A stretch of 38,525 nucleotides of DNA from a virus, in IMG/VR virus record IMGVR_UViG_3300020710_000017, positions 1 through 38,525 of that record, one strand, 5' to 3'. Positions 3,861 through 38,525 of this stretch are shown piece after piece. The notes below the pieces were generated by a model. That model saw only the letters and a program-made list of their open reading frames with translations, made no database searches and had not been told where the DNA came from. Position 1 is the stretch's first letter, and each line of letters begins with the position of its first letter. The position numbers and the translations under genes are program-made.

Positions 3861-5699
3861 ATGAAGACGTTTGATCTCAAAGATTTCAAAGAAAGATTTA
3901 AAGATTACAAGCTAGAGTTTTCAAGGTCCAATAGAATTACTGCAGCATTAACACTAAACCGTGCTTCAGGTTTAACGCAACTTGTATATGATAACGGTGA
4001 TGAGTTAATACTTAACTTTAATGACATCCATAACTATACATATCAAGACAACGGTATTGTTAGAGATGTTCCGTATATATCGTATCTTCCTCAGCACACA
4101 CTAGATACGTTAGCTAGTATTACAATCACACAAAGCAAGATTATAGCTGTAGGTGTATGTGGTTGGATGACATCATACCAAGGCTGTAACAATGTTCGTG
4201 TTCTTTATGATGCTCACATGCATGATACATATGCAGATAGAGATGTAGATTTACCGGGTGTTTGCAGTGAATGTGCAAACGCAATGCTTATCAACTCAAC
4301 ATATCGTACGCCTCCAACGTATGATCAAGATGGTCTACGTGTAATTAATAAGATTATACCTGACAGTATGTTTGAAGAAGTTGAAGCAGACTTAAGTACA
4401 TGTGCTGCTTGTGATACAGATGTCTTAAGTCAAGCAACATTTGATGCAATGCTAACTTACTATGAGATTACTCCTGATAGTAATGTGTATGTTGCTACAC
4501 ATCGTTGGTTGCGCATGCTTGGTACTACTGGTTACGCTGAAGGTATACACAGCAACTTGCATAACATGTGTGCTGTTGCTTGTTACAATTGTGAGCAGAA
4601 GTATAGCAATAAAACTTCCGAAACAGTTGACGTTATTACTAACAATGGTTGGCAGAAAGTTTGCTGCCGTAATTGCGTAGAAGTATTGTGGGGTAGTCGC
4701 GCTGACGACATCGAAGATTTCTGGTGTGAGCATGGCGATCACTATGCTCAGCAGACACAAGATGAGTTTCGTTGGTCTGACTATTGGGACCGAGACATGT
4801 GTAACTATTGTTATGACATGTATGTAGAATGTAACGAATGTGGTTATGAGTACCATCAAGATACTGGTCACGATTGTGAAGATGAGTATGATGATGATGA
4901 TTCAGGTTTAGTTCATAACTATAGTTACAAGCCTAACCCAATCTTCTTTGGTGATAGTAAGTATTACTTTGGTATTGAGCTTGAGGTTGAGTCACGTGCT
5001 AGCCAAAAGTCTGAAGCTGCCGAAACAGTAGTCAATGCATTGAGTGAGCATGTGTATCTTAAGAGTGATGGTTCATTAGCCAATGGCTTTGAGATCGTTA
5101 CTCATCCGCATTCACTTGATTCATTCCATGAGTTAGAATGGGGTTGGCTTGACACAATCAAGAGTCAAGGTATGCGCTCCTGGAATACCGACTCATGTGG
5201 TTTGCATGTGCATGTAAGTCGTTCTGCCTTTGGTCCGGAAGGTTATCAAACCAACAGTAATGCAATGAAGTATCTGCATGAAGCACACCTTATTCGCTTT
5301 AACAAGTTCATCTATGACAACCAGATTCAAGTAGAAATTTTGGCTGGTCGTAAGAACAATAACTATGCTAGCTTTAGCGACAAGGGTAGAGTCATCCCTA
5401 AAGTTAAGCTTAATAGGCAGAGCAGTGGTCGTTACTCTGCAGTCAATCTCGAGAACCGCACAACTGTAGAGTTGCGCATGTTCAAAGGCTCGCTTCGTAA
5501 GGAGCGAGTACTCAGTGCAGTTGAGTTTACTCATGCAGTTGTAGAGTATACTCGCAATCTAAAAGTCCAAGCAAGCAAGCGTCCATTTGCTTGGAGTCGG
5601 TTCACTACCTATGTAACAAACAATGAAGAGCTATACCCAAACCTATTTACGATCATGTCCGAATCATTTGATCGTAGAGAAAACCGAGAGGATAACTAA
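3861..5699 (+). CDS. Amidoligase-family protein with cysteine-rich N-terminal region
   Basis: A 612-residue protein. The C-terminal part (about 368-560) matches the glutamine-synthetase-like amidoligase family: FGIELEVE (370-377), KSDGSL (401-406), EIVTHPHS (411-418), CGLHVHVS (446-453), and AVNL...TTVELRMFKGS (about 527-544), which supply the metal- and ATP-binding acidic and His residues of that fold. Such enzymes form amide bonds between a carboxylate and an amine. Residues 100-330 contain many CxxC pairs (CSEC 135, CAAC 181, CYNC 241, CNYC 314, CNEC 324), probably several zinc-ribbon modules, unusual beside this domain. The next gene is a glutamine amidotransferase two bases downstream, the expected ammonia source. 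The substrate is unknown; peptides of the host wall or a protein tail are candidates. Confidence 0.8.
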   Translation: MKTFDLKDFKERFKDYKLEFSRSNRITAALTLNRASGLTQLVYDNGDELILNFNDIHNYTYQDNGIVRDVPYISYLPQHTLDTLASITITQSKIIAVGVCGWMTSYQGCNNVRVLYDAHMHDTYADRDVDLPGVCSECANAMLINSTYRTPPTYDQDGLRVINKIIPDSMFEEVEADLSTCAACDTDVLSQATFDAMLTYYEITPDSNVYVATHRWLRMLGTTGYAEGIHSNLHNMCAVACYNCEQKYSNKTSETVDVITNNGWQKVCCRNCVEVLWGSRADDIEDFWCEHGDHYAQQTQDEFRWSDYWDRDMCNYCYDMYVECNECGYEYHQDTGHDCEDEYDDDDSGLVHNYSYKPNPIFFGDSKYYFGIELEVESRASQKSEAAETVVNALSEHVYLKSDGSLANGFEIVTHPHSLDSFHELEWGWLDTIKSQGMRSWNTDSCGLHVHVSRSAFGPEGYQTNSNAMKYLHEAHLIRFNKFIYDNQIQVEILAGRKNNNYASFSDKGRVIPKVKLNRQSSGRYSAVNLENRTTVELRMFKGSLRKERVLSAVEFTHAVVEYTRNLKVQASKRPFAWSRFTTYVTNNEELYPNLFTIMSESFDRRENREDN

Positions 5700-5701
5700 C
5701 T

Positions 5702-6574
5702 ATGTGTATGCTATGTGTAATCCCACCGCATGTTACTCCAGATAGAGACATGCTTATCAACTCAGCACTTAACAATCCTCATGGCTTTGGCTTTGCTATT
5801 GCTGTGCCAGATGAGCAGCGTATCATCAGCGAGCGCAGCATGAATGCTGATGAGTCTATCAACAGATTCCTTGAGGTACGTAGTCAGTATCAAGATGGCT
5901 ATGCCACATGGCATGCCCGCTATGCTACTCATGGTAGCAAGGTGATTGAGAACTGCCATCCGTTTGTAGTAGGCAACGACCTGCGTACCTACCTGTCACA
6001 CAATGGTATCCTAGATGTAGATGTACCTAAGGGTGATGACCGTAGTGATACCCGTATCTTTGCAGAAGAACTTATCCCTGCATTAGGTGGTGTCACCGCC
6101 CTTGATAATCCATGGGTGTTCGACATGCTTGAAGACTATACCTCTGGTTCTAAGGTAGCCATTCTTACTGTAGACCCTAAAGCTAAGCATGAACTGTATC
6201 TACTCAATGAACATCTAGGTTGGGAAGATAGCTCAGGTGTGTGGTGGTCTAACCAGACATGTTATCTAGATGCCTGGGTTACTGACTACCGCAGCAAAGA
6301 CTTTGCTAAGTATGACGATGAAGAGTATGATGTGCAAGCCTGGCTCAAAGCTTCAAAGCAATCCAATATATCCAAGTGGATCAACAAACCTGTTGATGGT
6401 AAGATTCAATGCGGTGCTTGTGATTATGTTAGCACAGAGAAAGAAGTTGCTGACTATGAGAATGCATGCTACAATTGTGGCTACTGCTTTGAGTGTGATG
6501 CTATAGCATCATGGTGTGATTGCTATACCCCATCTCAACACAAGGCGGCAGGTCTATGGGTACCAGAATACTAA
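5702..6574 (+). CDS. Class II glutamine amidotransferase (Ntn hydrolase)
   Basis: A 290-residue protein. Cys2 directly after Met1 is the expected N-terminal nucleophile once Met is removed. Other class II motifs are in order: HARYATHG (71-78), NCHPF (84-88), LSHNGI (98-103) and DTRIF (116-120). It releases ammonia from glutamine. A separate C-terminal zinc-ribbon region carries CGAC (237-240) and CYNCGYCFEC (256-265), echoing the cysteine-rich region of the upstream amidoligase. The two-base gap to that gene implies co-translation and a joint complex in which ammonia is passed to the ligase. No synthase domain is fused here, so the amidoligase is the natural partner. Confidence 0.85.
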   Translation: MCMLCVIPPHVTPDRDMLINSALNNPHGFGFAIAVPDEQRIISERSMNADESINRFLEVRSQYQDGYATWHARYATHGSKVIENCHPFVVGNDLRTYLSHNGILDVDVPKGDDRSDTRIFAEELIPALGGVTALDNPWVFDMLEDYTSGSKVAILTVDPKAKHELYLLNEHLGWEDSSGVWWSNQTCYLDAWVTDYRSKDFAKYDDEEYDVQAWLKASKQSNISKWINKPVDGKIQCGACDYVSTEKEVADYENACYNCGYCFECDAIASWCDCYTPSQHKAAGLWVPEY

Positions 6575-17341: not shown

Positions 17342-17569
17342 TTACTGCTTGATATTAAACAAAGCAGATACTTCGTCGGGCGTTAGCCCAAGAGAAGCAA
17401 GCTTAGAAACTGCTGATGCTTTAGCATTCTCTGCTGCAACAGCAGCATCTTTTGCTGCTTGCTCTGCTGCAAGAATTGCGTTGTAATCGTCAATCTCTTG
17501 TTGAGTGAAAGGGCGGGTCACGCCCTCACCTGTTTCACCGTTAACTTCTAATTTAATCAAATCATCCAT
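17342..17569 (-). CDS. Small tail-fibre partner or chaperone-like protein
   Basis: A 75-residue protein directly after the fibre gene, joined by TAATG. It begins with a short beta stretch (IKLEVNGETGEGVTRPFTQQEIDDYNAI) and continues as an Ala/Lys-rich helix ending with LGLTPDEVSALF. Similar small proteins after fibre genes serve as assembly chaperones or as trimer-binding parts; here that is inferred from position. Confidence 0.55.
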   Translation of the reverse strand: MDDLIKLEVNGETGEGVTRPFTQQEIDDYNAILAAEQAAKDAAVAAENAKASAVSKLASLGLTPDEVSALFNIKQ

Positions 17570-19905
17570 TAGCTATTTCCTAATCCATAGACACGAATTG
17601 TTCCTGTAATTGCAGAGCCAAACGTTACAGTAAAGCCATCAAATGCTGAAGCAACAGCATGGTTTCCAGCTGCAATGCCTACACCGTAAAGAGGAGCTAT
17701 TGTACTACCGTACATGGGCAATGAAGAGTAATATGTATTTGCTGCCAAAGCAGGTGAATATATACACATATGCAATGGGTGAGCACCTTGATCTGTAACC
17801 GGTGAAGGTTTCCAACCCGTTGTCTGGTTAATTTGGTTAGACGTTGAAACGGTTTGACCAGTAGTACCAGTTGTGTAAAGCGTTGTATCGTAATAGCTAG
17901 CACTGCTATCTGTACCAGATGCACGTAACTTCATGGTTACTGTACCAGCAGTTGCTGATATTACAACCATATAGTTATCGTAGGTTGTATTAAATACTGA
18001 GTTAACAGATACAGATGTTACAGATGTAAATGAAGTTGAAGTAACTAACTTCATGCTGCTGTTAACAGAACCATCTGCCATTAAGAATTGAGCAGAAGTA
18101 CCACCAGACTTAACAAGTGATGTAGCGGTTAAGGTACCAGTATGTGTAGTTGTTCCAGTGATACCAATAGTAGCATTGGTGTGGCCAATATTAATTGGTG
18201 TAGCACCAGTACCAACGGTAGCAATGTTAAGAGTGCCAGTTGTTAAACCAGCACCAATTGCCATTGTTCCTGTTGTAGTATTTGGGAACAAAGTAGTAGT
18301 TGTTGCTGTTGCACTTGCTGAGTTAATTACATCAGCAACAGTAGTACCAGCAAGCGTTGTTGTGTTACCAGACTTACCAATAGTTACAGCACCAGTGGTT
18401 GCTCCGATGCTAATTGTTCCAGATGTAGAGCCACCGCCAGCATTGATGGTAACGTTACCACCAGTTCCAGTGCCACCAGTACCTGCAGTTAAGGTCAATG
18501 AACCTCCTGCACCGGATGCAGTTGATCCAGCAGCAAGCGAAGCACTACCGCCAGCAGAAGTAGCACCGCCACCATTAAGTGTAAGTACGCCACCGCCCGC
18601 AGTTCCTCCATTACCACCAGCAGTTAACGTAACTGTTCCACCTACACCAGTACCGCCACCAGTAGCATTACCAGTAGTAATGTTAATAGCGTTAGAGTTT
18701 ACGTTAATAGTGGATGTTGCTGGCGTGCTAAGTGTTGGGTTTGTAATAGTCAAACTATCAACCGTTGAGATTGTCGTACCAGAAGTTACTACTGTGGTAC
18801 CAAGAGTAGGTGCGCTGTATGTAGCAGCAGGTGCAGCCCACGCAGCGGTAGTACCATTGGATGTTAACAACCAACCAGAGGTTGTTGCAATGGAAAGGTT
18901 AGCGGGTGTACTTGCAGAAGATGCTACAAGGATCGAACCTGTAGAAGCATAAGTTGATTTAGCAACGGATGCAGATACAGATGCAGCAGCAGATGCTGCA
19001 GATGTAGCAGCAGCCGTAGCAGATGCAGCAGCTGAAGTAGCTGAAGTAGCAGCTGCAGTAGCAGATGCAGCAGCGCTTGTGGCGCTGGTTGCTGCAGCCG
19101 TAGCAGATGCTGCTGCTGATGTAGCAGAAGTTGTTGCAGCAGTTGCTTGCGTTGTTGCAGTAGCAGCAGAGTTAAACGCAGTAGTTGCGCTAGCAGCAGC
19201 TGATGTAGCAGATGTAGCAGCAGCAGTAGCCTGTGTTGCTGCTGACGTTGCTGATGTAGCAGCAGCAGTTGCTGAAGCAGCAGCCGATGTGGCTGATGTT
19301 GCAGCTGCTGTAGCCGAAGCAGCTGCAGATGTAGCACTTGTTGCTGCCTGTGCAACTTGTGAGGATGAAGCCGTATCTACATAATTCTTAGTAGCAGCAC
19401 CAGTAGAAGTTGTAGGGTCTGCAAGTCCAGTAATCTTAAAGCCACCAGCAGCAAGGTCAGAACCTAGCGTCTTGTTGGAAAGAGTTTGAGTAGCGGTAGT
19501 ACCAACTACGTAACCGTCTGATGATCCAAGGCCATGCAGATTGTGCTGAGCCGTACCATCGTTATATGATGTTGCTGCTTCAATGTGCTTGTTAGATTCA
19601 CGTAGGTCGCGGCCAATAACCATGTGGCGCACAATAGCGCCAGAAAAGTGATCAACAGCATTTGAACCGTCAACACCTCGGTTAGCGGTAACGTTGTTGC
19701 TACCTACAGAGTAAGCAGTAATCTCAATGATTTCTTCTGAGGCTGTGTCTGGGTCAACAACTACAGTAAAGGTATTGCCACCAGATACAGCACCGACAGG
19801 AATCAACGCAGCAGCGTTGAACAGCTGGAATAAATTAGCACCAGCCGTTGTTGTAGCAGTAAGTGTTGTCTGCTGAGAACGTGAAGAATATAAACGAGTT
19901 GTCAT
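17569..19905 (-). CDS. Tail fibre with alanine-rich repeats
   Basis: A 778-residue fibre. Residues 1-165 form an N-terminal attachment domain (TVVVDPDTASEEIIEITA, then GRDLRESNKHIEAATSY). Next comes an Ala/Ser/Thr repeat region built from about 14-residue units (SATSAAASATAAAT), a probable trimeric rod. The middle is Gly/Thr-rich (TLTAGGNGGTAGGG, TLNGGGATSAGG, TLTAGTGGTGTGG), repeated like a beta-solenoid. The C-terminal 140 residues (TSFTSVTSVSVNS to GTIRVYGLGNS) form a globular tip that likely binds the host. It is followed by a small partner gene. Confidence 0.8.
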   Translation of the reverse strand: MTTRLYSSRSQQTTLTATTTAGANLFQLFNAAALIPVGAVSGGNTFTVVVDPDTASEEIIEITAYSVGSNNVTANRGVDGSNAVDHFSGAIVRHMVIGRDLRESNKHIEAATSYNDGTAQHNLHGLGSSDGYVVGTTATQTLSNKTLGSDLAAGGFKITGLADPTTSTGAATKNYVDTASSSQVAQAATSATSAAASATAAATSATSAAASATAAATSATSAATQATAAATSATSAAASATTAFNSAATATTQATAATTSATSAAASATAAATSATSAAASATAAATSATSAAASATAAATSAASAAASVSASVAKSTYASTGSILVASSASTPANLSIATTSGWLLTSNGTTAAWAAPAATYSAPTLGTTVVTSGTTISTVDSLTITNPTLSTPATSTINVNSNAINITTGNATGGGTGVGGTVTLTAGGNGGTAGGGVLTLNGGGATSAGGSASLAAGSTASGAGGSLTLTAGTGGTGTGGNVTINAGGGSTSGTISIGATTGAVTIGKSGNTTTLAGTTVADVINSASATATTTTLFPNTTTGTMAIGAGLTTGTLNIATVGTGATPINIGHTNATIGITGTTTHTGTLTATSLVKSGGTSAQFLMADGSVNSSMKLVTSTSFTSVTSVSVNSVFNTTYDNYMVVISATAGTVTMKLRASGTDSSASYYDTTLYTTGTTGQTVSTSNQINQTTGWKPSPVTDQGAHPLHMCIYSPALAANTYYSSLPMYGSTIAPLYGVGIAAGNHAVASAFDGFTVTFGSAITGTIRVYGLGNS
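18955..19345 (-). repeat. Low-complexity GCA/GCT-rich repeat within the fibre gene
   Basis: DNA coding for the SATSAAASATAAA units is a near-tandem repeat of about 42 bases, mostly GCAGCAG/GCTGCTG-type codons on the coding strand. It is prone to slippage and length change between strains. Codon use is not perfectly repeated, which shows that the array is not recent throughout. Confidence 0.75.
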
Positions 19906-23432: not shown

Positions 23433-24602
23433 TTAGTAGTCGATTGAAGAAGAAGACTCTACGCGGTAGAGGGCTTCATCACGGTAGATGGACCAGCCGG
23501 CTACGCCGTACCAACCCAATGGGCGGTGACGCATGAGCTTGTCAACAACCGGACCGATAACAACGTGGAACTCTTCAGCCACTGCTTCTGCAAGTGCCTG
23601 TTGTCCAGCGAAGTACGTGTTGAATACACGGGTCTCAGGTGTGATTGTGATTGTTGCACCTGATGTAACACCAGCTGAAAGAACTGGGGTATCGATGGTT
23701 ACGTTCAATCCTGAGATTGCTGTAACCTGTACGCCTGAAGTTGCAAGGCCGGTACCTGAGAGACGATCTCCAACCTGGAACGCTACAGCTGTAAGAGCAA
23801 GTGTTGTAGCACCTGATGCTGCTGCTGCAGTTGTTGTGGTTGTGATTGAGGTCTGATCAGCACCCTTCTTGTCAGAGAACATACGTGGTGACTCTACATA
23901 GAATGCACCTTCGTAGGTTCCGATTTCTCCAGCCCAGATCTCATCATTAGCCTGGTACTCATGTGGCTGACGCCATGAACCCACACCGGTCTCGGCACGA
24001 AGATCGTGCGCGACCTCTGGGTGAATACCTGCCCAATAAAGATTACCCTTACGTGGGATAGCCTTGTTGGTACGGAGCTTAGCAACTGCCTTACGAGCCA
24101 TTGCTGAGTTGAACGTATCAGATGAGGTGACGGTTGTTGAAGATGTACGTCCACCAGCGCGGAGTACGTTAGCGCCTGTGGCGAGAACGTTCTGTGCAAG
24201 TGTATCGACGGAGTCTGCAAGGTTGTATGCAATGATGTTAGCAACGGCTGGATCTACATCAGCAAGGCTGAAGAGCTCGAGAGCACGTGTAACGAGTACT
24301 GCATTACCATACTCTTGGAGAGTAATGGTTGTGTATGTTGGTGTAGCAAGTGCTACTGCATCTGGATCGACAGACTCTGTAAGTGAAGCGGTCTGTTGAG
24401 TCAAGTCAACGTAACGCTGCAATACAACTGAGGAACCAGGAATGCTCTGACGGGCTGGGGTCTTGTCTGCGACTTGGCGAACCAATGGTTGCGCACGAAG
24501 TGCAAACTCAATAAGGCGATCATACGCCTTCTGTACTAGACCGGCACCGCCAACTGTACCACCTAGGGATGAAGACCCTGTGGTTGTATAGGCATTAGCC
24601 AT
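23433..24602 (-). CDS. Major capsid protein, N4-gp56/HK97-fold type
   Basis: A 389-residue protein with the conserved opening of the N4-gp56 capsid family: LVRQVADKTPARQSIPGSSV (40-59), RYVDLTQQ, LATPTYTTITLQEYGNAV (85-102) and RALELFSLADVD, and the closing HVVIGPVVDKLMRH (346-359). Residues about 248-325 are an inserted beta-rich Ala/Thr/Gly domain (TSITTTTTAAAASGATT...), probably exposed on the surface. A very strong AGGAGG precedes the ATG. The scaffold-like gene lies directly upstream. It would form the capsid shell. Confidence 0.85.
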   Translation of the reverse strand: MANAYTTTGSSSLGGTVGGAGLVQKAYDRLIEFALRAQPLVRQVADKTPARQSIPGSSVVLQRYVDLTQQTASLTESVDPDAVALATPTYTTITLQEYGNAVLVTRALELFSLADVDPAVANIIAYNLADSVDTLAQNVLATGANVLRAGGRTSSTTVTSSDTFNSAMARKAVAKLRTNKAIPRKGNLYWAGIHPEVAHDLRAETGVGSWRQPHEYQANDEIWAGEIGTYEGAFYVESPRMFSDKKGADQTSITTTTTAAAASGATTLALTAVAFQVGDRLSGTGLATSGVQVTAISGLNVTIDTPVLSAGVTSGATITITPETRVFNTYFAGQQALAEAVAEEFHVVIGPVVDKLMRHRPLGWYGVAGWSIYRDEALYRVESSSSIDY

Positions 24603-30800: not shown

Positions 30801-33167
30801 TGGAATCCACTTAGCAGGGTTAATACCAAAGACGGTACGCAAACCACGTGTCATGAAAGGAACCTTTGTATTGTCGCCAGAGGCAGCAATAAGAAGCTTG
30901 TTTACTGCACGACCCTTAGACCAGGTAGTAATGTTCTTTACTGGTGCAGTTAACCAATGGAAGATACCTTGCTCGATGGTACCACGTGTACCCATACGAG
31001 GAAAGATAGAACCAAATGCCCAGCCATCTACAATCTTACGAGTCCATGCATGGCGAATAAGACCGCCTAAAGCGTGCGCAATTGAGTGCGCAGCAGAGCC
31101 TTCTTTGTTAAAGTTAAATCCAAATGGAGCAAGTTCTGGTCCGTTAAAGTCTAGTCCACCGATATGTGGTTTACCCTGGAAGCCATGAATTGGTCCATTG
31201 ATAGAGGAGTAAACTCCTTCATTGCCTTTAGCTGAGTCAACCATAATTGGTTCGACTTGCTTCCACGCCTTAAGATGTTCTGGGTTAATAGCAGCATCTC
31301 TTGTAGTTGCAAAGAGACCTGTATCACCAAACTTTTGGCTAAGAACCGCTAAGCGCTTCTCTTCTGGAACACCCATAAGGTTAAGGATCTGGCTGTATAG
31401 TCCACGTACTGCGGTAACGCGATCTACAGGATTAGCATAAACAAATGCTGATGTTGTAATATCAGCTGCATACTTTGGATAACCAGCAAGGCGTAGGTAA
31501 CGGTTGAATACGTTAGCAGTTTGCTTGACGTTATCATCCATTACGTTGATAACTTCATGTCCTGGATGCATTTGAACCATGCGTGTAAGACGACGACCAA
31601 GTGTTATCTGCTTCTGGAATGAATTAAGTTCTGGGTTGTAAACACTTGTAGGCAATTGAGTTGCCTCATCAAGGGTAGAACCAATATCAAGTAGGCCTTG
31701 AAGGCCCTTCTTTTCAGCAACCTTTTCCATCTCAGGAGTGATCTTGCCATTAAGTGCATCGCTAATAAAGCGATTAGCACCTGATGTAAACTGACGCTCA
31801 CGACGTGCTACAGGAATACCCATGCGTAGACCAGTTGGTCCATCGACTACACCCATGTGCAGTTCTTGCGCACCCTGCATTGTCTTAGCAAATTGCTTGA
31901 TGCCCTCAGAGTTGAACTCATTGCTTGCCTTAAAGGACTTAGTAACAAGCTCTAGAAAGTCAGGGTTGTTAATCTCTGGTGCATTCTTACGGATGTTTTC
32001 CATAGCAGCAGCACGGGCAATAGGGTCTTTGGCAGCATCTGCTTCAGCTAAACGCTGAACTGCAGGGCCGTATAAATTATCCCAGTCATTGGAAATCTTG
32101 GTACCTTTAGCAAAGATCTGTTCTGCTGTTGCATCCCGCAATGCAGGATCAAGAAGCTTATCTGCAAGCCTTGCGCCTTTAACGGTAGCCTCAACGGCAT
32201 CAGAACCACCACCTGTAAGATAGGTTAGTGGGTCATGCATGATCTCATAGAATGCATCTACTGCACCTGTGCTGTACTTCCACTTGCCAGTAGTATAAAA
32301 ATGGCTATCAGTATTTGGTACGTTCATCATGACACGCATAGCATCTCTACCAGGAGATACTTGTGCTCCACGGAACTCATCCATCATAGAGTTAAACTCT
32401 TTAGTATTGCCTAGCATACTGACTAGGCCCTTCATAAGATCACCGTCTACTTTGCCGTAGTTGTCGATAATCTTGCCAGGTGTATCGCCTTTAAGTACGC
32501 CTTCTGCAATAAAGGCGTTAGCCTTGCCATAGGTCTTAGTAAGGTTAGCTAGTGTACCTGTATCAAAAACGCCTGTACCATTCCATGCATTCTTGTATGC
32601 TTGTGAATCCCAGATAGATCCACCTTGTGTAAGCTCACGGCCAAACAAATACGGAGCATTGATGATCTTACCTTCAACGCCAGCAGCTTTATACAGCGCA
32701 ATAAGCGGACTAGCAGCAGCTTCTAGTGCTGTCTTGCCAACGCTTTTAAGCGTTTGCGTAATCCAGTTATCTGTATTAGTCCATGCAGGAGAACCGTACA
32801 TAGCCTTAATCATGCTTTGTGCATCAGAACTAAGTGTTTTATAGTGCTGTTTAGCATCTTGTATAGGCATACCGTTTAGGTTCTTATACATCTGCACAGT
32901 ACCCATGATTTGGTTATACATGTTTGCTTGTGCTGGATTAAGACCAGCAGTAATAGCAGCAGCCGTCATAGACGGTGCAGCTGTAAGTCCATGTCCCATG
33001 TAGTTAAGCACACTTGCTGGGGGTGTAATGCCAGTTGGTGCAGCTCCTGGTGGTACGACACTTCCAACAGGATTCATGTTAAGAACTGGTAGCCCACCGC
33101 TAGGCATAGGGTTAGGAGTTGGCTGAGGTGTAGGGGTTACATTAGGCTGCTGGCTCTGATTTGCCAT
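27870..33167 (-). CDS. Giant internal virion or ejection protein
   Basis: A 1,765-residue protein, about 14% of the genome. The first 55 residues are Pro/Thr/Asn-rich and disordered. The remainder is long, largely helical and almost free of cysteine, with no clear catalytic motif. Its place between the peptidase/portal genes and the capsid, and its size, suit the large inner-core proteins of short-tailed phages (as in gp16 of T7), which leave the virion with the DNA. Other readings include a structural ruler or an RNA polymerase; no polymerase signature was visible. The start has TAATG with the upstream gene. Confidence 0.7.
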   Translation of the reverse strand: MANQSQQPNVTPTPQPTPNPMPSGGLPVLNMNPVGSVVPPGAAPTGITPPASVLNYMGHGLTAAPSMTAAAITAGLNPAQANMYNQIMGTVQMYKNLNGMPIQDAKQHYKTLSSDAQSMIKAMYGSPAWTNTDNWITQTLKSVGKTALEAAASPLIALYKAAGVEGKIINAPYLFGRELTQGGSIWDSQAYKNAWNGTGVFDTGTLANLTKTYGKANAFIAEGVLKGDTPGKIIDNYGKVDGDLMKGLVSMLGNTKEFNSMMDEFRGAQVSPGRDAMRVMMNVPNTDSHFYTTGKWKYSTGAVDAFYEIMHDPLTYLTGGGSDAVEATVKGARLADKLLDPALRDATAEQIFAKGTKISNDWDNLYGPAVQRLAEADAAKDPIARAAAMENIRKNAPEINNPDFLELVTKSFKASNEFNSEGIKQFAKTMQGAQELHMGVVDGPTGLRMGIPVARRERQFTSGANRFISDALNGKITPEMEKVAEKKGLQGLLDIGSTLDEATQLPTSVYNPELNSFQKQITLGRRLTRMVQMHPGHEVINVMDDNVKQTANVFNRYLRLAGYPKYAADITTSAFVYANPVDRVTAVRGLYSQILNLMGVPEEKRLAVLSQKFGDTGLFATTRDAAINPEHLKAWKQVEPIMVDSAKGNEGVYSSINGPIHGFQGKPHIGGLDFNGPELAPFGFNFNKEGSAAHSIAHALGGLIRHAWTRKIVDGWAFGSIFPRMGTRGTIEQGIFHWLTAPVKNITTWSKGRAVNKLLIAASGDNTKVPFMTRGLRTVFGINPAKWIPEKSIYDQAGLKTVQGHLDKALVNGKEVWQLAEHADVIHALAQRIDRYAGGDPVREQIMYKILKHPSRIKAAEVNSISAKSAAHSGVLGGSIDDPLLTGNQIQRMLKAVGYKATGKFKNVDPAQIAKDLGEDALADRHFRNWAPIFKSWNRVRGDDFHFGLTFMKHNALRTAEDFSNALKEILTHFGVNPDTLEVESKAQFNKYKNFSMETYRDVANKGMSEVQSVVNRIQHALSDAYVTFHGSSDPEKFNNTLVRYIRKTAASEMEQNGVTQNTAIIKALDSVDHNAFRELTRDNHMDTVFKSDLEEINKVDWTKGGNVLGKVMAAIKQWAEKGPMNHGLEMMDAQINWLFNQPALHVATMSLNEKYLPMEREMFDALVKEGYSKTTALDIAERHFIELAEKNAANQVLKFVDTAAKQSNLAFTMRTTGRFYRAQEQYMRRIVRLWDYKARSLYRTRLLHLGIDNAGFIHKDQNGNPYITVPGDASLFHAINNTMDFFLNRPDATVVTPMFANFNMNLLQSSPSLSPDAGVPAFSGPLMSIPILGLKALLNKLPWAWSKEASTSIDSVMLGSKSANLTLSKTEPVFAQRLLEMLPKSEQDHQYASAAMMAIAYNAKNGFGELTPQSIQGMDPATYKSKAQDYIDNLHVTVNNILGLRALLGMLSPIAPTLGEKDVPYGFTNAGITNLSAGFNDILQGVMRNDEGLTDPYETALAIFTANNPGMSIFAVGKSDKAAKLLQSYTQNTENWIITHNKWVNNSDSGIANAAMIFAPDMGKYDANAYAWMQSTGMIKQKPLKDYLQQVLTAQDVQAYWNAKTREEALLATNDPSRNNAVKDAQAEQQAILDANPVAALQINDAKNTLATYQNNFAGLGALLQRKDFDIPDAMRKKMQTVYNLAQLAINDMTTDKNGLGVINAAHDKNVTKQTYINEIARIGGAAKPGDAPTDPQIAEALKSIIVPLLNNLSKTTLKAGITQ

Positions 33168-33583
33168 TAGTAACCTCGGCTAATCAGCGCTCTGTACAAA
33201 AGTTCTGCGTCTCCGGTCGGATCATTCTGAGCAAGGGTACGAATAGTGTGCGAAGGGGAAATAGCCACGTTAGGGGACTGCAAAGCCTCAGATCCTGGGC
33301 CTGGACCCTGATCAATGCCAGAGGTAATTGGCTCGTTAGGACGCTGTGTAGGAACAGATAGCGGTACAACAGGGACAGGGGCTGGGCCACCAGCCAAAGG
33401 TGCTGCCTGTTGGTTAGCCATGTTCTCTCCACCCTTACCATAGCCTAAACCAGGCATGTACTTAGGTGCTTGAGTCTGCATTCCTTCTACTGCTCCACCA
33501 TCTGTGCGCTGTGAAAGCGCACCTGGTCCTGAAACAGGTGCAGGATTAGATGGCTGGCGGTATCCACCGTGTTGTTCTGCCAT
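33167..33583 (-). CDS. Pro/Gly-rich structural-region protein
   Basis: A 138-residue protein with AGGAGG before the start. The sequence is Pro/Gly/Gln-rich (QPSNPAPVSGPGALSQ, AGGPAPVPVVPLSVPTQ), ending in a short helix (GDAELLYRALISRGY). A second possible start (MANQQAAPL, 33,421) has GGAGAG upstream and resembles the N-terminus of the next protein (MANQSQQ). Function unknown. Confidence 0.6.
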   Translation of the reverse strand: MAEQHGGYRQPSNPAPVSGPGALSQRTDGGAVEGMQTQAPKYMPGLGYGKGGENMANQQAAPLAGGPAPVPVVPLSVPTQRPNEPITSGIDQGPGPGSEALQSPNVAISPSHTIRTLAQNDPTGDAELLYRALISRGY

Positions 33584-33591
33584 TGGTCCTC

Positions 33592-34128
33592 CTATTTAGC
33601 AAACTGTTCTTTGACCAGGAATGGTCCTGCTGTATATACACTACGTTTTGCTGCTATCTCTAGCGCTTTAAGCAGTTCTGCACCTGCATCTAAAGCACCC
33701 ATAGCAAACTCTGCACCAGAACCTACACCGTAGATTCCATCTGCTGACATTGTTACTGAACAATCGTCTTCAACATCAAAGATTTGTCCATTAACTGCAA
33801 TGAGAAACTTAAATCCAGATTCATCACGCTTCTCTTCAAAGTTATAACCGTTGTCTTTAAGGCATTTTCTTAATGACGGCATTACTTTTGTAATCATAAA
33901 GTGGTAAATATCTTTTTTATCACGTGCAGTTAGCGCTGGTGGGTTCCAAATATGCTGCGCAATGTCGCAAGGTTGCACCTCACCACTGCCTGCAATAAGA
34001 AAAGCACCACGTTCACTGATCTTTGTCATGCGTGGATCAAGATATTTACGCCCATCACCTGCTGTAACTAGGTTATCTGCAGCAATTACGCAATGATCTT
34101 TATATTGAACACCGATAATTGTTGTCAT
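33592..34128 (-). CDS. Proteasome beta/HslV-like Ntn-hydrolase peptidase
   Basis: A 178-residue protein aligning end to end with HslV/20S beta-type peptidases. MTTIIGV exposes Thr2 as the N-terminal nucleophile after Met removal. CVIAADN (13-19) supplies the conserved Asp (D18), MTKIS (34-38) the Lys near the active site (K36), VGSGAEFAMGAL the Ser/Gly loop, and ALEIAAKRSVYT the closing helix. The length equals that of cellular HslV (about 175). No HslU-type ATPase is present. It lies between portal and virion genes, where tailed phages usually encode the prohead protease, and no other protease is present. A maturation protease role is therefore the leading inference. Confidence 0.8.
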   Translation of the reverse strand: MTTIIGVQYKDHCVIAADNLVTAGDGRKYLDPRMTKISERGAFLIAGSGEVQPCDIAQHIWNPPALTARDKKDIYHFMITKVMPSLRKCLKDNGYNFEEKRDESGFKFLIAVNGQIFDVEDDCSVTMSADGIYGVGSGAEFAMGALDAGAELLKALEIAAKRSVYTAGPFLVKEQFAK

Positions 34129-34133
34129 TGTCC

Positions 34134-35939
34134 CTATCCAACTACGCGACGGTTGATTGTCCTTACACTTGCATTACCTTTACCAGCAACATTCATGCTA
34201 GATAGCAAACTTTCTAGCTCTGGGCGTGGTGTTACAATACCAACGCCTTGTTCTGGCCGCATTTGCTGCTGTCCTGGCTGTTCACTAGGGCCTCCTCCTG
34301 GCGCACCGGGAGCCGACGGGACGGTTTGCTGCTCAACCGGTTGTCCTGCACCAGCAGGAGGATTCTGAGGTGCAAACACTTCTTCAATAACTGACTCAAG
34401 GGCCTTGCCCTTTTGACGCAGTTTAATGATCTGAGCTATCTTCTGCACAATTGCAGTAGGGTCTTGACCCTGTGATGCCATTTGTGGGATAGCCTGAGTG
34501 TATGCTTGTACTGCGCCCATCAGTGATGTACGCAAATCTTCCGTCTCAATCTTCTCTTGCTCTAATGTTACGTTAACATCAAATGGAAGCTCGCGCATGG
34601 CGAGATCCTTTGAGATTAACTTGCCACCCAAAGCTTGTAGCATGAAGATAAGTCCCTGTGCTGGGTTAAGTCCAGCCAACATTCCATAACGTACATCTGC
34701 TGAGTAGTCTCCCTTGATGTCCTTGCTAGGCAAGTACTCAAGAGCATACGGTGAACCAGCATCAATACCGCGAATGGTCTTTCTTACGTTGAACAACTTC
34801 TCATCAACTTCAAAGCATAGCGAGATAACGTTACGCAGTGCAGTTGTAAAAATAGTCTGCGCAGATTTGATCTGCGAATCAAAGGAGCCCATAAGGGCTT
34901 CTACTCCAGCACCAGTTACAATAGATGCCTTCATGTTTCCAGAACGTGCTTCAGGATAACGAGCTCCGGTACGGAGTTCATCGTTAAGAAGCTGCTGTTC
35001 TGTAAATGCTCCCTGTGGGAGTGTAAGTTCTACACGTCGTACACCCTGTGGGTTAGCTGTACGAATAACAGCATCTCCGCCAAGTTGCAACTCTTGAACG
35101 TCGTTAGGAAGAACGATCGGTGCTTGAACGGATTTCTCTGCTGCTTCCATAGCAAGGAGAGCAAATCGGTTACGAAGTAACTGAATACCGAGCACATCGT
35201 CGAACTGTCCACGAAGTTCTCCATCAACACTTGGACGACGGGCAACAATAACCATCATCTTACCAAGTGGATTAGGTGCCTGAGATAGCACAAGATTGCT
35301 ACGTGTAGGCAAGTAAAGAACGCTCTGGTCCTTATCGAAGTAACGGATCATCTCAAGCATGCCATTCATGTCTTGCTTGTATCCGTTAGGGCCAAGAATC
35401 TGGCGCTCATAATCTGGGAACTGGGCAACCAGTTCACCTAGCGTCATTGAGTAACGCTTAACAAAGGCTGTGCATTTCCCGTAGCGATCAAACTCTGGGT
35501 AACACCCAATAGGGTTTTCTACGCGGATGCGTGGCAGCTTTGCTTCATCATCCAATTCAATAATGAATGGGAGGAAGCCATAGGTGATGTACATATCTGC
35601 AGCAGAGTACATCAGTACTTCCATCTCAGAATGACGGAAGTAGTTAGAGGCAATACGTGTGCGGGTGTCAGCAAACTGACGAGCACGATCTGATGCCTGA
35701 TTAACAGCTGAACAATTAATGGCAGGTAGCGGTGCTAGCATTTCTGCTAGATCACGTGCAACAATGTCAATAAAGTTTGCTACAACGTTTTGGTCAATAC
35801 CATCTGGGAAAAAGTTAGGGTATACCTGTGAGATCTTTCCCTGACGCACCATCTGGACATCACCATTACGCATGTCACGTGATGTTGCGCGGTAGCGCAA
35901 TGTCTGCACACGTGCAGTGATTTGGTTAATTGTCAGCAT
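34134..35939 (-). CDS. Portal protein
   Basis: A 601-residue protein located after the terminase. It opens with helical segments (NQITARVQTLRYRATS) and a region with NFIDIVARDLAEMLAPLP, then has the portal-like core (YFRHSEMEVLMYSAADMYITYGF, ENPIGCYPEFDRYGK), a long helical stem, and a Pro/Gln-rich C-terminus (NPPAGAGQPVEQQTV). The composition, size and position match portals of short-tailed and N4-gp56-capsid phages. It forms the ring through which DNA enters and exits. Confidence 0.8.
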   Translation of the reverse strand: MLTINQITARVQTLRYRATSRDMRNGDVQMVRQGKISQVYPNFFPDGIDQNVVANFIDIVARDLAEMLAPLPAINCSAVNQASDRARQFADTRTRIASNYFRHSEMEVLMYSAADMYITYGFLPFIIELDDEAKLPRIRVENPIGCYPEFDRYGKCTAFVKRYSMTLGELVAQFPDYERQILGPNGYKQDMNGMLEMIRYFDKDQSVLYLPTRSNLVLSQAPNPLGKMMVIVARRPSVDGELRGQFDDVLGIQLLRNRFALLAMEAAEKSVQAPIVLPNDVQELQLGGDAVIRTANPQGVRRVELTLPQGAFTEQQLLNDELRTGARYPEARSGNMKASIVTGAGVEALMGSFDSQIKSAQTIFTTALRNVISLCFEVDEKLFNVRKTIRGIDAGSPYALEYLPSKDIKGDYSADVRYGMLAGLNPAQGLIFMLQALGGKLISKDLAMRELPFDVNVTLEQEKIETEDLRTSLMGAVQAYTQAIPQMASQGQDPTAIVQKIAQIIKLRQKGKALESVIEEVFAPQNPPAGAGQPVEQQTVPSAPGAPGGGPSEQPGQQQMRPEQGVGIVTPRPELESLLSSMNVAGKGNASVRTINRRVVG

Positions 35940-36307: not shown

Positions 36308-38218
36308 CTATCCGTATGTTTCGGACCATTGAGATGCAAAGGCATCGTCTAGGTTGATTTGAGTTCGTCTTTCCATTTGGGACCGTGTAGCCCACCTGTT
36401 GTTTAGGTAAGGAGTTACATGGGTATTTTTTTGAATCATCTCTCGCGCTCTAATGATTGTAAACCAGAGTGCCATTACGCAGTCAGTTGCGCCTTTGGTA
36501 TCTGGTCTCCACGTCAGTAGTTGTTGGACAAGAGCTTTAATTCCTTCGCTGCCTTCTGAGGAAGGCAACTCAATAATGTTGTTCTTCTGGTGCTTGTCGT
36601 TGACAGTAGTACCGAAGAGGCTCGACATAGACGAGACTCCAAGATTGGTATCCCACTTGTTCTTGCCTGTAAAGTGTGAGGTAAGCTTTACGCCATAACC
36701 GGCAAGCCAGTTACGGAAGTCAACGTCAAGCTCGTACGCCTTCTGGAAAGCATTGATCTCCATACGGATCTCTTGTGGCTTGTACTTGTTGGTCAATTCC
36801 TTGACCTGGTTAATAATCTTTTGGTAGTTCGGTTCGGTCATGTTAATGCAATCAAGCACATAGATCTTGCCATCAGCACGGTTGTATGCCGTCACTACGA
36901 ATGCTGCTTTACCTGCTGTAGCTGGGTCTACGCCAATCATGACGTAAGGCTCTACATGGTTAGGGTGTCCTACTGCTCCAGGTCGTAAGGGACCCACACG
37001 CCGTGCTCCGTTGGTACTTCCTGTAACGAGTGGAGGGGGGAAGGTTGAATCTTCTTCAATGTCTTCCTGTTGGTAGACAAGAGCCCACGTGCTAGGAGTA
37101 ACCTCACTGCGACGCTTGAATAGGGTTGCCCCATCCCACTTCGGGTAGTACCCTTCTTCATCCGCCGGAATCTCATCGTCCCCGTCCCACGGGACGTCCG
37201 ACTTTGGCCAGAGCGTGACCCATTCTTTCGGGTCAGCATTAAACTCCAAAACCGCAGGCATACCCATATAAGTAAAAGGGCTACGACCGCTGGACCAATG
37301 TTTTGGATTACGAAGTTCTTTGTAGAGGTCATTGGCTGCAATCCGTGTCCCTACTACTAGAAGTTTACCGTTCTTACCCAGACGGGTGATGACTTCTTTC
37401 TGAAGCCAGTTCATCTGCTTTTCCCACTCATGAGCGTTAGCGGTGGTAATGCAGTCATCAAGGATAATCAGATCGGCGCGTGCGCCGTAGATCTGTCCAC
37501 CCATGCCAAGAGCTTGAATCGTTGGATCCTTCTCCGAAGAATTACGCGCATCGCTTCCGAGGTATACCGTGTCAGTGCGCCAAGTGTCGGCGTCCTCTTT
37601 CCATCCTCCCTCAGGACCAAATGCGTTCTGCATCTTTAGGTACATAGGGTGGGAGAGGCGCTGCTTGATTGCGTACACGAACTCGCGTGCTTTAACCAGG
37701 GTCTTAGAAACTACGATGATTCTAACGTTTGGGTCGAGAGCGATGCGGTAAGTTGAGTAATTGACCGTGATAACGGTCGACTTAGCATGCTCAGGTGGCA
37801 CGTTGACCAGCAAGCGGTTTTTCTCCGCTGGCTCATAGATCATGCTAGGATGCAGGTAGTTAGGCTCTCGTCCCTCTAGCAGGTCTACCCAGTCTTGATG
37901 GTGGGGAAATACAGTTTGATTCAAAAATGCTTTTGAGAACTCAGCGAAGGTGAGCTCGTTCTTTGGCTTGCCCAGGCTCTCCAGGGAGGTAGCTTCGCCC
38001 CTCTCCTTTGCTCCTTCAAGCGCTTCCGCAAAGTCGGGGTCCCGGAGGATCCACTGCCTGATAGTATCAGGTTTACGGCCTACGGCTACCATAGCCTGGT
38101 GCGTTGTCGCACCCTTGGCTACCATATCCACAACTTTGTCTTTGTCTTCTTTTAGAGCCTTAACCTTAAAGTGGTCAGCTCCTGAGCCAAATCCTTGGCC
38201 ACGTCCCTTGGTTGCCAA
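36308..38218 (-). CDS. Terminase large subunit with N-terminal HTH
   Basis: A 636-residue protein starting at TTG with AGGAG five bases upstream. Residues 25-75 hold a helix-turn-helix-like unit (TTHQAMVAVGRKPDTIRQWI) that resembles the DNA-binding domain of small terminases. The ATPase has NVPPEHAKST (139-148, P-loop), LIILDDC (250-256, Walker B) and VVGTRI (288-293, coupling motif). The nuclease domain begins at VMIGVDPATAGKAAF (about 413) with the first metal-binding Asp and continues through EIRMEINAF. It packages DNA. No separate small terminase gene was recognised. Confidence 0.9.
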   Translation of the reverse strand: MATKGRGQGFGSGADHFKVKALKEDKDKVVDMVAKGATTHQAMVAVGRKPDTIRQWILRDPDFAEALEGAKERGEATSLESLGKPKNELTFAEFSKAFLNQTVFPHHQDWVDLLEGREPNYLHPSMIYEPAEKNRLLVNVPPEHAKSTVITVNYSTYRIALDPNVRIIVVSKTLVKAREFVYAIKQRLSHPMYLKMQNAFGPEGGWKEDADTWRTDTVYLGSDARNSSEKDPTIQALGMGGQIYGARADLIILDDCITTANAHEWEKQMNWLQKEVITRLGKNGKLLVVGTRIAANDLYKELRNPKHWSSGRSPFTYMGMPAVLEFNADPKEWVTLWPKSDVPWDGDDEIPADEEGYYPKWDGATLFKRRSEVTPSTWALVYQQEDIEEDSTFPPPLVTGSTNGARRVGPLRPGAVGHPNHVEPYVMIGVDPATAGKAAFVVTAYNRADGKIYVLDCINMTEPNYQKIINQVKELTNKYKPQEIRMEINAFQKAYELDVDFRNWLAGYGVKLTSHFTGKNKWDTNLGVSSMSSLFGTTVNDKHQKNNIIELPSSEGSEGIKALVQQLLTWRPDTKGATDCVMALWFTIIRAREMIQKNTHVTPYLNNRWATRSQMERRTQINLDDAFASQWSETYG

Positions 38219-38398: not shown

Positions 38399-38525
38399 GA
38401 GGGATCTGCTGTCTGCGAGAGGCTTAATCCTGGGAGGCGTTGTTGAGTAATTATAGACCCCCTACGGGGGTAGTTGTCCCTGTGTATACTGTACTGTCTG
38501 TAACAGTATGAGCAGGCTATATAAA
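38399..38525. repeat. Terminal direct repeat, right copy (contig closure)
   Basis: Exact copy of the first 127 bases. It joins the upstream side of the terminase gene and the tRNA-like element to the left control region, so the two intergenic stretches form a single region of about 1.2 kb between the divergent gene blocks. Confidence 0.9.

Follow-up and report, generated by a model that had tools for sequence, protein, structure and literature searches.

A proteasome-family peptidase gene and an unrelated small gene exchanged behind the portal gene in a podovirus lineage

Three groups of proteasome homologues, named PPH, AAH and CPH, have been described as phage-borne proteins that occur without AAA+ partners and whose function is not known (Fuchs, Alva and Lupas 2021, PMC8665760). 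PPH proteins comprise about 140 residues and are missing the second helix, H2, and the AAH group has an actinobacterial and alpha-proteobacterial range, with no Actinobacteria-specific phage found to carry a member (PMC8665760). In a further relative, BPH, the extended, acid-rich loop that follows helix 2 was linked by the same authors to unfoldase independence (PMC8665760); the purified protein showed no activity towards standard peptides or casein (PMC5777263). Connectase, also a member of the Ntn family, has protein ligase activity (PMC8665760).

Here, we investigated a gene of this family in a virus genome of 38,525 nucleotides (IMG/VR record IMGVR_UViG_3300020710_000017; hereafter the window). 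The phage-borne family itself is already known (PPH, AAH, CPH; PHROG 1040), and what is new is a clean natural replacement of the peptidase gene in otherwise closely related phages. Descriptions of phage proteasome homologues have so far offered no clue to what they do, a question that the swap makes testable. The family is furthermore extended to podoviruses of a large lineage, most of it from lakes, for which the nearest host-recorded isolates infect Streptomyces.

The gene, its surroundings and its predicted fold

The peptidase open reading frame was found to be real, with exactly the boundaries given in Table 1. As the first-pass annotation had it, the gene stands directly downstream of the portal gene: its ATG lies 5 nt past the portal stop, and its own stop is followed after 8 nt by the start of the next gene. 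The late genes run on the minus strand in the order terminase, a 126-aa ORF, portal, peptidase, 138-aa protein and 1765-aa protein, continuing with a 479-aa protein, a 391-aa protein, the likely scaffold, the capsid protein and then the tail genes. The window is probably a complete phage genome, since it carries a 127-bp direct terminal repeat. The 1765-aa protein has a conserved place but only 22–66% identity among relatives, and showed no significant Pfam or PHROG match. Among the tail genes, a 778-aa protein (17569–19905) contains long Ala/Thr/Ser-rich repeats and is without a Pfam match.

Table 1 Features of the window discussed in the text.
Feature	Position	Strand	Basis or remark
Direct terminal repeat, 127 bp	1–127 (left copy); 38399–38525 (right copy)		
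Major capsid protein	23433–24602	minus	PHROG 1357, Pfam Phage_capsid_3
Likely scaffold, 161 aa	24641–25126	minus	PHROG 7813; scaffolding-family match weak
Giant protein, 1765 aa	27870–33167	minus	Proposed inner-virion protein; no family match; present with either slot gene
138-aa protein, conserved right flank of slot	33167–33583	minus	PHROG 8200, unknown function
Exchange slot, portal stop to next gene	33584–34133	minus	Holds the peptidase in the window
Proteasome-family Ntn-hydrolase, 178 aa	33592–34128	minus	PHROG 1040; profiles, alignment, AlphaFold
Predicted active site of the peptidase	within 33592–34128		Thr2, Asp18, Lys36 catalytic; Gly49 oxyanion hole (analogy with proteasome Gly47)
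Portal protein, conserved left flank of slot	34134–35939	minus	PHROG 104, E 2e-26
Terminase large subunit	36308–38218	minus	PHROG 38

The peptidase passed the curated cut-off of the Pfam Proteasome family PF00227 (25.4 bits against 22.4) and matched PHROG 1040, "peptidase HslV family", with an E value of 1e-27. Thr2, Asp18, Lys36 and Gly49 were invariant in 41 of 41 aligned sequences, down to 28% identity; loss of Thr2, which would have spoken against the original proposal, was not seen in these relatives. In a wider automatic collection, which includes duplicate contigs and partial genes and is thus less clean than the 41-row alignment, the three catalytic residues were present in 94 of 97 rows and the other three rows were gapped. 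The equivalent of proteasome Asp166 is Ser163 in the window peptidase and is variable among relatives. Selection on the gene was found to be purifying, with a median dN/dS of 0.08 (138 pairs, dS 0.2–1.2).

The AlphaFold model (mean pLDDT 93.3) has a proteasome-subunit fold, and therefore an Ntn fold. In VIA-align comparisons with proteasome-type chains it reached Z scores of 16.8–18.4 over 157–168 residues, the best being BPH (5ovt, Z 18.4 over 164 residues), where Thr2 of the model falls on Thr1 of the chain. BPH was likewise nearest by fold in a Foldseek search, and came first in a search of the PDB with the 41-row profile (E 3e-12), followed by HslV and proteasome beta subunits. Solved chains of HslV and of proteasomes shared 16–24% identity with the window protein. 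Behind helix 2, at about residues 93–106, the loop is acid-rich and longer than that of HslV; by analogy with BPH it is suggestive only, as a possible mark of unfoldase independence.

A full-length Ntn-hydrolase of HslV type with Thr2, Asp18 and Lys36 had been proposed for this gene. Profiles, alignment and fold bear out the hydrolase and its proteasome-like architecture, but the HslV label is inaccurate, because the scores against the NCBIfam HslV models (20 and 21 bits) lie far under the equivalog cut-offs (157.75 and 137) and BPH is nearest by both profile and fold; a true HslV was accordingly rejected. A search of the window with the TIGR00390 model, at E values up to 1, did not return the partner ATPase HslU, which had been said to be absent; this holds for the phage genome, and a host HslU is possible. 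Judged by sequence and model, the protein is a proteasome-family subunit with a retained, predicted active site and is not HslV in the strict sense. It had no match to a known defence family in PADLOC, and two scans for near matches in 84,980 genomes returned no close bacterial homologues.

Exchange of the slot gene and distribution of homologues

A portal scan found more than 590 places encoding a relative of the window portal, the best 80 of which were kept, and a capsid-protein scan contributed 80 more loci; slot content was counted at loci showing both flanks, some of which share one contig. On this basis 89 loci could be assigned, with the peptidase at 40 and a small gene at the remaining 49. 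The small gene encodes 72–85 residues (~79) with an acidic tail and is unrelated to the peptidase. The two were found together at none of the loci examined, a lone weak small-gene match in a peptidase locus (L076) being chance-level and out of place. The separation was repeated in 19 near-complete genomes, where all 11 with the peptidase lacked the small gene and all 8 without it carried the small gene (11/0 versus 0/8). Among the 70 gene families common to at least 4 of these 19 genomes, only the slot gene separated the two states completely; weaker associations of other families with the peptidase state followed clade structure.

The replacement is most clearly seen between L078 and L080, whose virion operons align over ~11 kb in three blocks (2057 bp at 93.1%, 7944 bp at 97.5% and 1298 bp at 97.3% identity); the identity breaks exactly from the end of the portal gene to the end of the slot gene, and no second copy was present in the L080 contig (20.4 kb, partial). 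On the portal tree the slot state must change 7 times, and the starred branches force no fewer than 5 of these changes. The three genomes G029, G044 and G048, whose direct terminal repeats measure 99, 38 and 127 bp, had no PHROG 1040 match anywhere. The peptidase was also absent from the Streptomyces podoviruses WRightOn and Abafar, which have a related portal, and in Streptomyces relatives still other small genes occupy the slot. Since near-identical relatives hold an unrelated small gene instead, the peptidase gene can be regarded as accessory and optional, and its product is very probably not a shell-maturation protease.

The small slot-gene family (L080:2074–2313 and 32 other loci) has a basic start in addition to its acidic tail. 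It matched neither PHROG nor PADLOC families, and its AlphaFold model shows three helices at only moderate confidence (pLDDT 73.7). At three peptidase loci a different acidic-tailed ORF of ~84 residues separates the peptidase from the 138-aa gene (L042:8037–8283, L096:4669–4915 and L098:4683–4929), the L042 copy beginning MSAEFREAVEDALRLLVD. Two contigs, G050 (76,622 bp; source of L203) and G051 (79,356 bp; source of L205), each hold two virion-gene sets of the window lineage; assembly has probably fused two phage genomes in each, and they were left out of the complete-genome count.

Another window gene encodes a Cys-rich protein with an amidoligase-like C-terminal part (3861–5699). The adjoining gene (5702–6574) probably specifies a glutamine amidotransferase of class II, an enzyme type that likewise belongs to the Ntn-hydrolases. 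This pair was found in 9 of 11 genomes with the peptidase and 3 of 8 without. A pupylation-like link to the peptidase was considered and rejected, the association being too weak and confounded by kinship.

Homologues of the peptidase were found at many other positions. The nearest (L006, 69% identity) is on a contig without this virion module, and the peptidase of L046, the portal sister of the window, is only 50% identical to that of the window. In the peptidase gene tree the slot copies do not group together, and 6 changes are needed (4–7 over bootstrap trees). Within the group at 54–66% identity, the gene follows a RuvC-like resolvase in the replication module (L013–L024), lies downstream of virion structural genes (L032) or stands upstream of the terminase (L030). 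More distant homologues are located between glycosyltransferase and primase regions (L037–L041), and L222 has it after the capsid gene, away from the portal. In isolates, homologues are encoded in early or nucleotide-metabolism regions, as seen in Microbacterium phage LeeroyJenkins (gp16), D'Alembert, Arthrobacter phage Hum25 (gp81), MTATph1, AAS21 and J2-1, where the gene is next to PhoH. A larger phage with the peptidase in its replication region also encodes a queuine tRNA-ribosyltransferase (L024:18876–20414).

The window portal has Streptomyces phages as its nearest isolates with host records (43%). Because of these portals and of homologues at 25–34% identity in actinobacterial phages (Actinomycetia phage DSL-LC01, Microbacterium phages and Arthrobacter phages), an actinobacterial host is plausible for the window phage on sequence grounds.

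Candidate roles

The reading we prefer, with slightly better than even confidence, is that the gene is an accessory one which moves horizontally and encodes an active threonine peptidase; within the family the protein belongs to group I, is closest to BPH and fits AAH. It draws on computed results, namely the fold, the conserved catalytic residues, the purifying selection, the replacement and the occurrence in unrelated phages and positions. Peptidase activity should not be assumed from the predicted active site, because BPH itself was inert on test substrates. Mechanistically, host methionine aminopeptidase would remove Met1 and thereby expose Thr2, and the subunits may form a closed complex, ring- or barrel-shaped, that encloses the active sites. 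The phage would then need no dedicated unfoldase of its own: the substrates might be small or unfolded, or a host ATPase might feed the enzyme. As the weakest step, it could degrade or trim host proteins for the benefit of the phage, in takeover or counter-defence. Such a host-directed role is favoured on the mobility and dispensability of the gene, not on a target, and we give it about an even chance. The optional nature of the gene, its exchange among phages that differ in virion and gene order, and its location in a late operon here but in replication or early regions elsewhere would all be explained by such a role. Against the preferred reading stand the inertness of purified BPH and the Ser163 position, which replaces proteasome Asp166 and varies among relatives; in the window lineage, besides, the gene usually stands among virion genes, as would be fitting for an assembly role too.

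An alternative starting from that location is that the peptidase optionally trims, at a late stage, a virion or ejected protein that the phage can do without, such as the giant or the 138-aa protein; this trimming would be useful but dispensable. The late virion operon and the tight gene spacing in the window lineage speak for it; however, the giant, scaffold, capsid and 138-aa genes are present in both slot states, and homologues in other phages lie in replication or early regions, and we regard it as unlikely. Slightly less probable still is that the peptidase and the small acidic gene are two unrelated solutions to one task, e.g. neutralizing one host factor. Their strict mutual exclusion at one slot agrees with this, but exclusion is possible without shared function, as one locus holds one gene at a time; moreover, three loci hold the peptidase together with the different ~84-aa gene, and Streptomyces relatives have yet other small genes in the slot. 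A more specific version, which we consider more doubtful again, sees the slot as a dedicated exchange site where the lineage switches between destroying one host factor with the peptidase and blocking it with the small protein.

Two further readings appear very improbable, and to the same degree. In one, the protein is a decoy or poisoning subunit that enters a host HslV or proteasome ring; it has the same fold as these, but its low identity to the solved chains argues against this, and a pure decoy is unlikely because the catalytic residues are invariant under strong purifying selection. In the other, it has an Ntn activity other than proteolysis, for instance as a connectase-type protein ligase, for which there is precedent in the family (PMC8665760) along with the inertness of purified BPH on standard substrates (PMC5777263). 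The window model, on the other hand, has all flanking helices, whereas connectase is missing the first helix pair and has an insertion between strands 3 and 4 (PMC8665760).

Least credible of all is the capsid-maturation (prohead) protease originally suggested, cleaving scaffold or capsid inside the procapsid, for which the place directly after the portal in one virion operon and the lack of an S78-type protease in the window (no S78 model matched, as the first-pass annotation had noted for serine-type prohead proteases) would speak, but which was rejected on comparative grounds. That otherwise near-identical virion operons carry an unrelated gene of ~79 codons one-for-one in its stead argues against virion maturation; the gene is not present wherever the virion module is made, being missing at those 49 of 89 loci among the best relatives listed, from the three terminal-repeat genomes and from WRightOn and Abafar; and capsid N-termini are alike in both slot states. 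Nor does it keep a constant place beside portal or scaffold, as its positions in other phages and in L222 show. A dedicated head-maturation protease coexists with the homologue in LeeroyJenkins, where a capsid maturation protease is annotated, and in the L030 lineage, where the protein after the portal matches head-maturation proteases. The near-identical operons with peptidase or unrelated small gene thus offer a clean natural pair in which the benefit of the peptidase can be tested.

Comparison with described proteasome-like systems

Compared with S78-type head-maturation proteases (PHROG 80), the peptidase shares a gene position beside the portal, and this in the window lineage only, whereas fold and catalytic type differ and the peptidase is dispensable and coexists with such proteases elsewhere. 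With HslV (ClpQ) it has in common the fold, the N-terminal threonine and a similar length, but it scores far below the HslV cut-off and the phage has no HslU.

BPH (PDB 5ovs, 5ovt, 5ovu; PMC5777263) is the best match by profile and fold; it likewise has no unfoldase partner, and the loop behind its helix 2 is similarly extended and acidic. In contrast to the phage gene, that of BPH is chromosomal; the protein forms a double heptamer and is 24–27% identical to the peptidase.

The phage-borne AAH, CPH and PPH proteins share with the window peptidase the family, the catalytic triad, the occurrence in tailed phages and the lack of an AAA+ partner. The definition of PPH does not apply, as the window protein has 178 residues against about 140 and the helix corresponding to H2 (residues 74–92) is present in its AlphaFold model. 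Compared with the published description of AAH, a compact subunit with helices H1–H4, no insertions and no C-terminal S12/H5, the model is compatible with that group. Its cellular relatives, at 30–33% identity, come from Streptomyces, Rhizobium and Sinorhizobium plasmids and match the AAH taxonomic range; one of them, on Sinorhizobium fredii plasmid pSfreNXT3b (L268:3001–3543), lies among the nitrogen-fixation genes rpoN, nifQ and nifS. Membership in AAH, compared by description, is thus likely rather than proven. While no Actinobacteria-specific phage with AAH had been reported, the nearest host-recorded isolates of the window lineage are Streptomyces phages.
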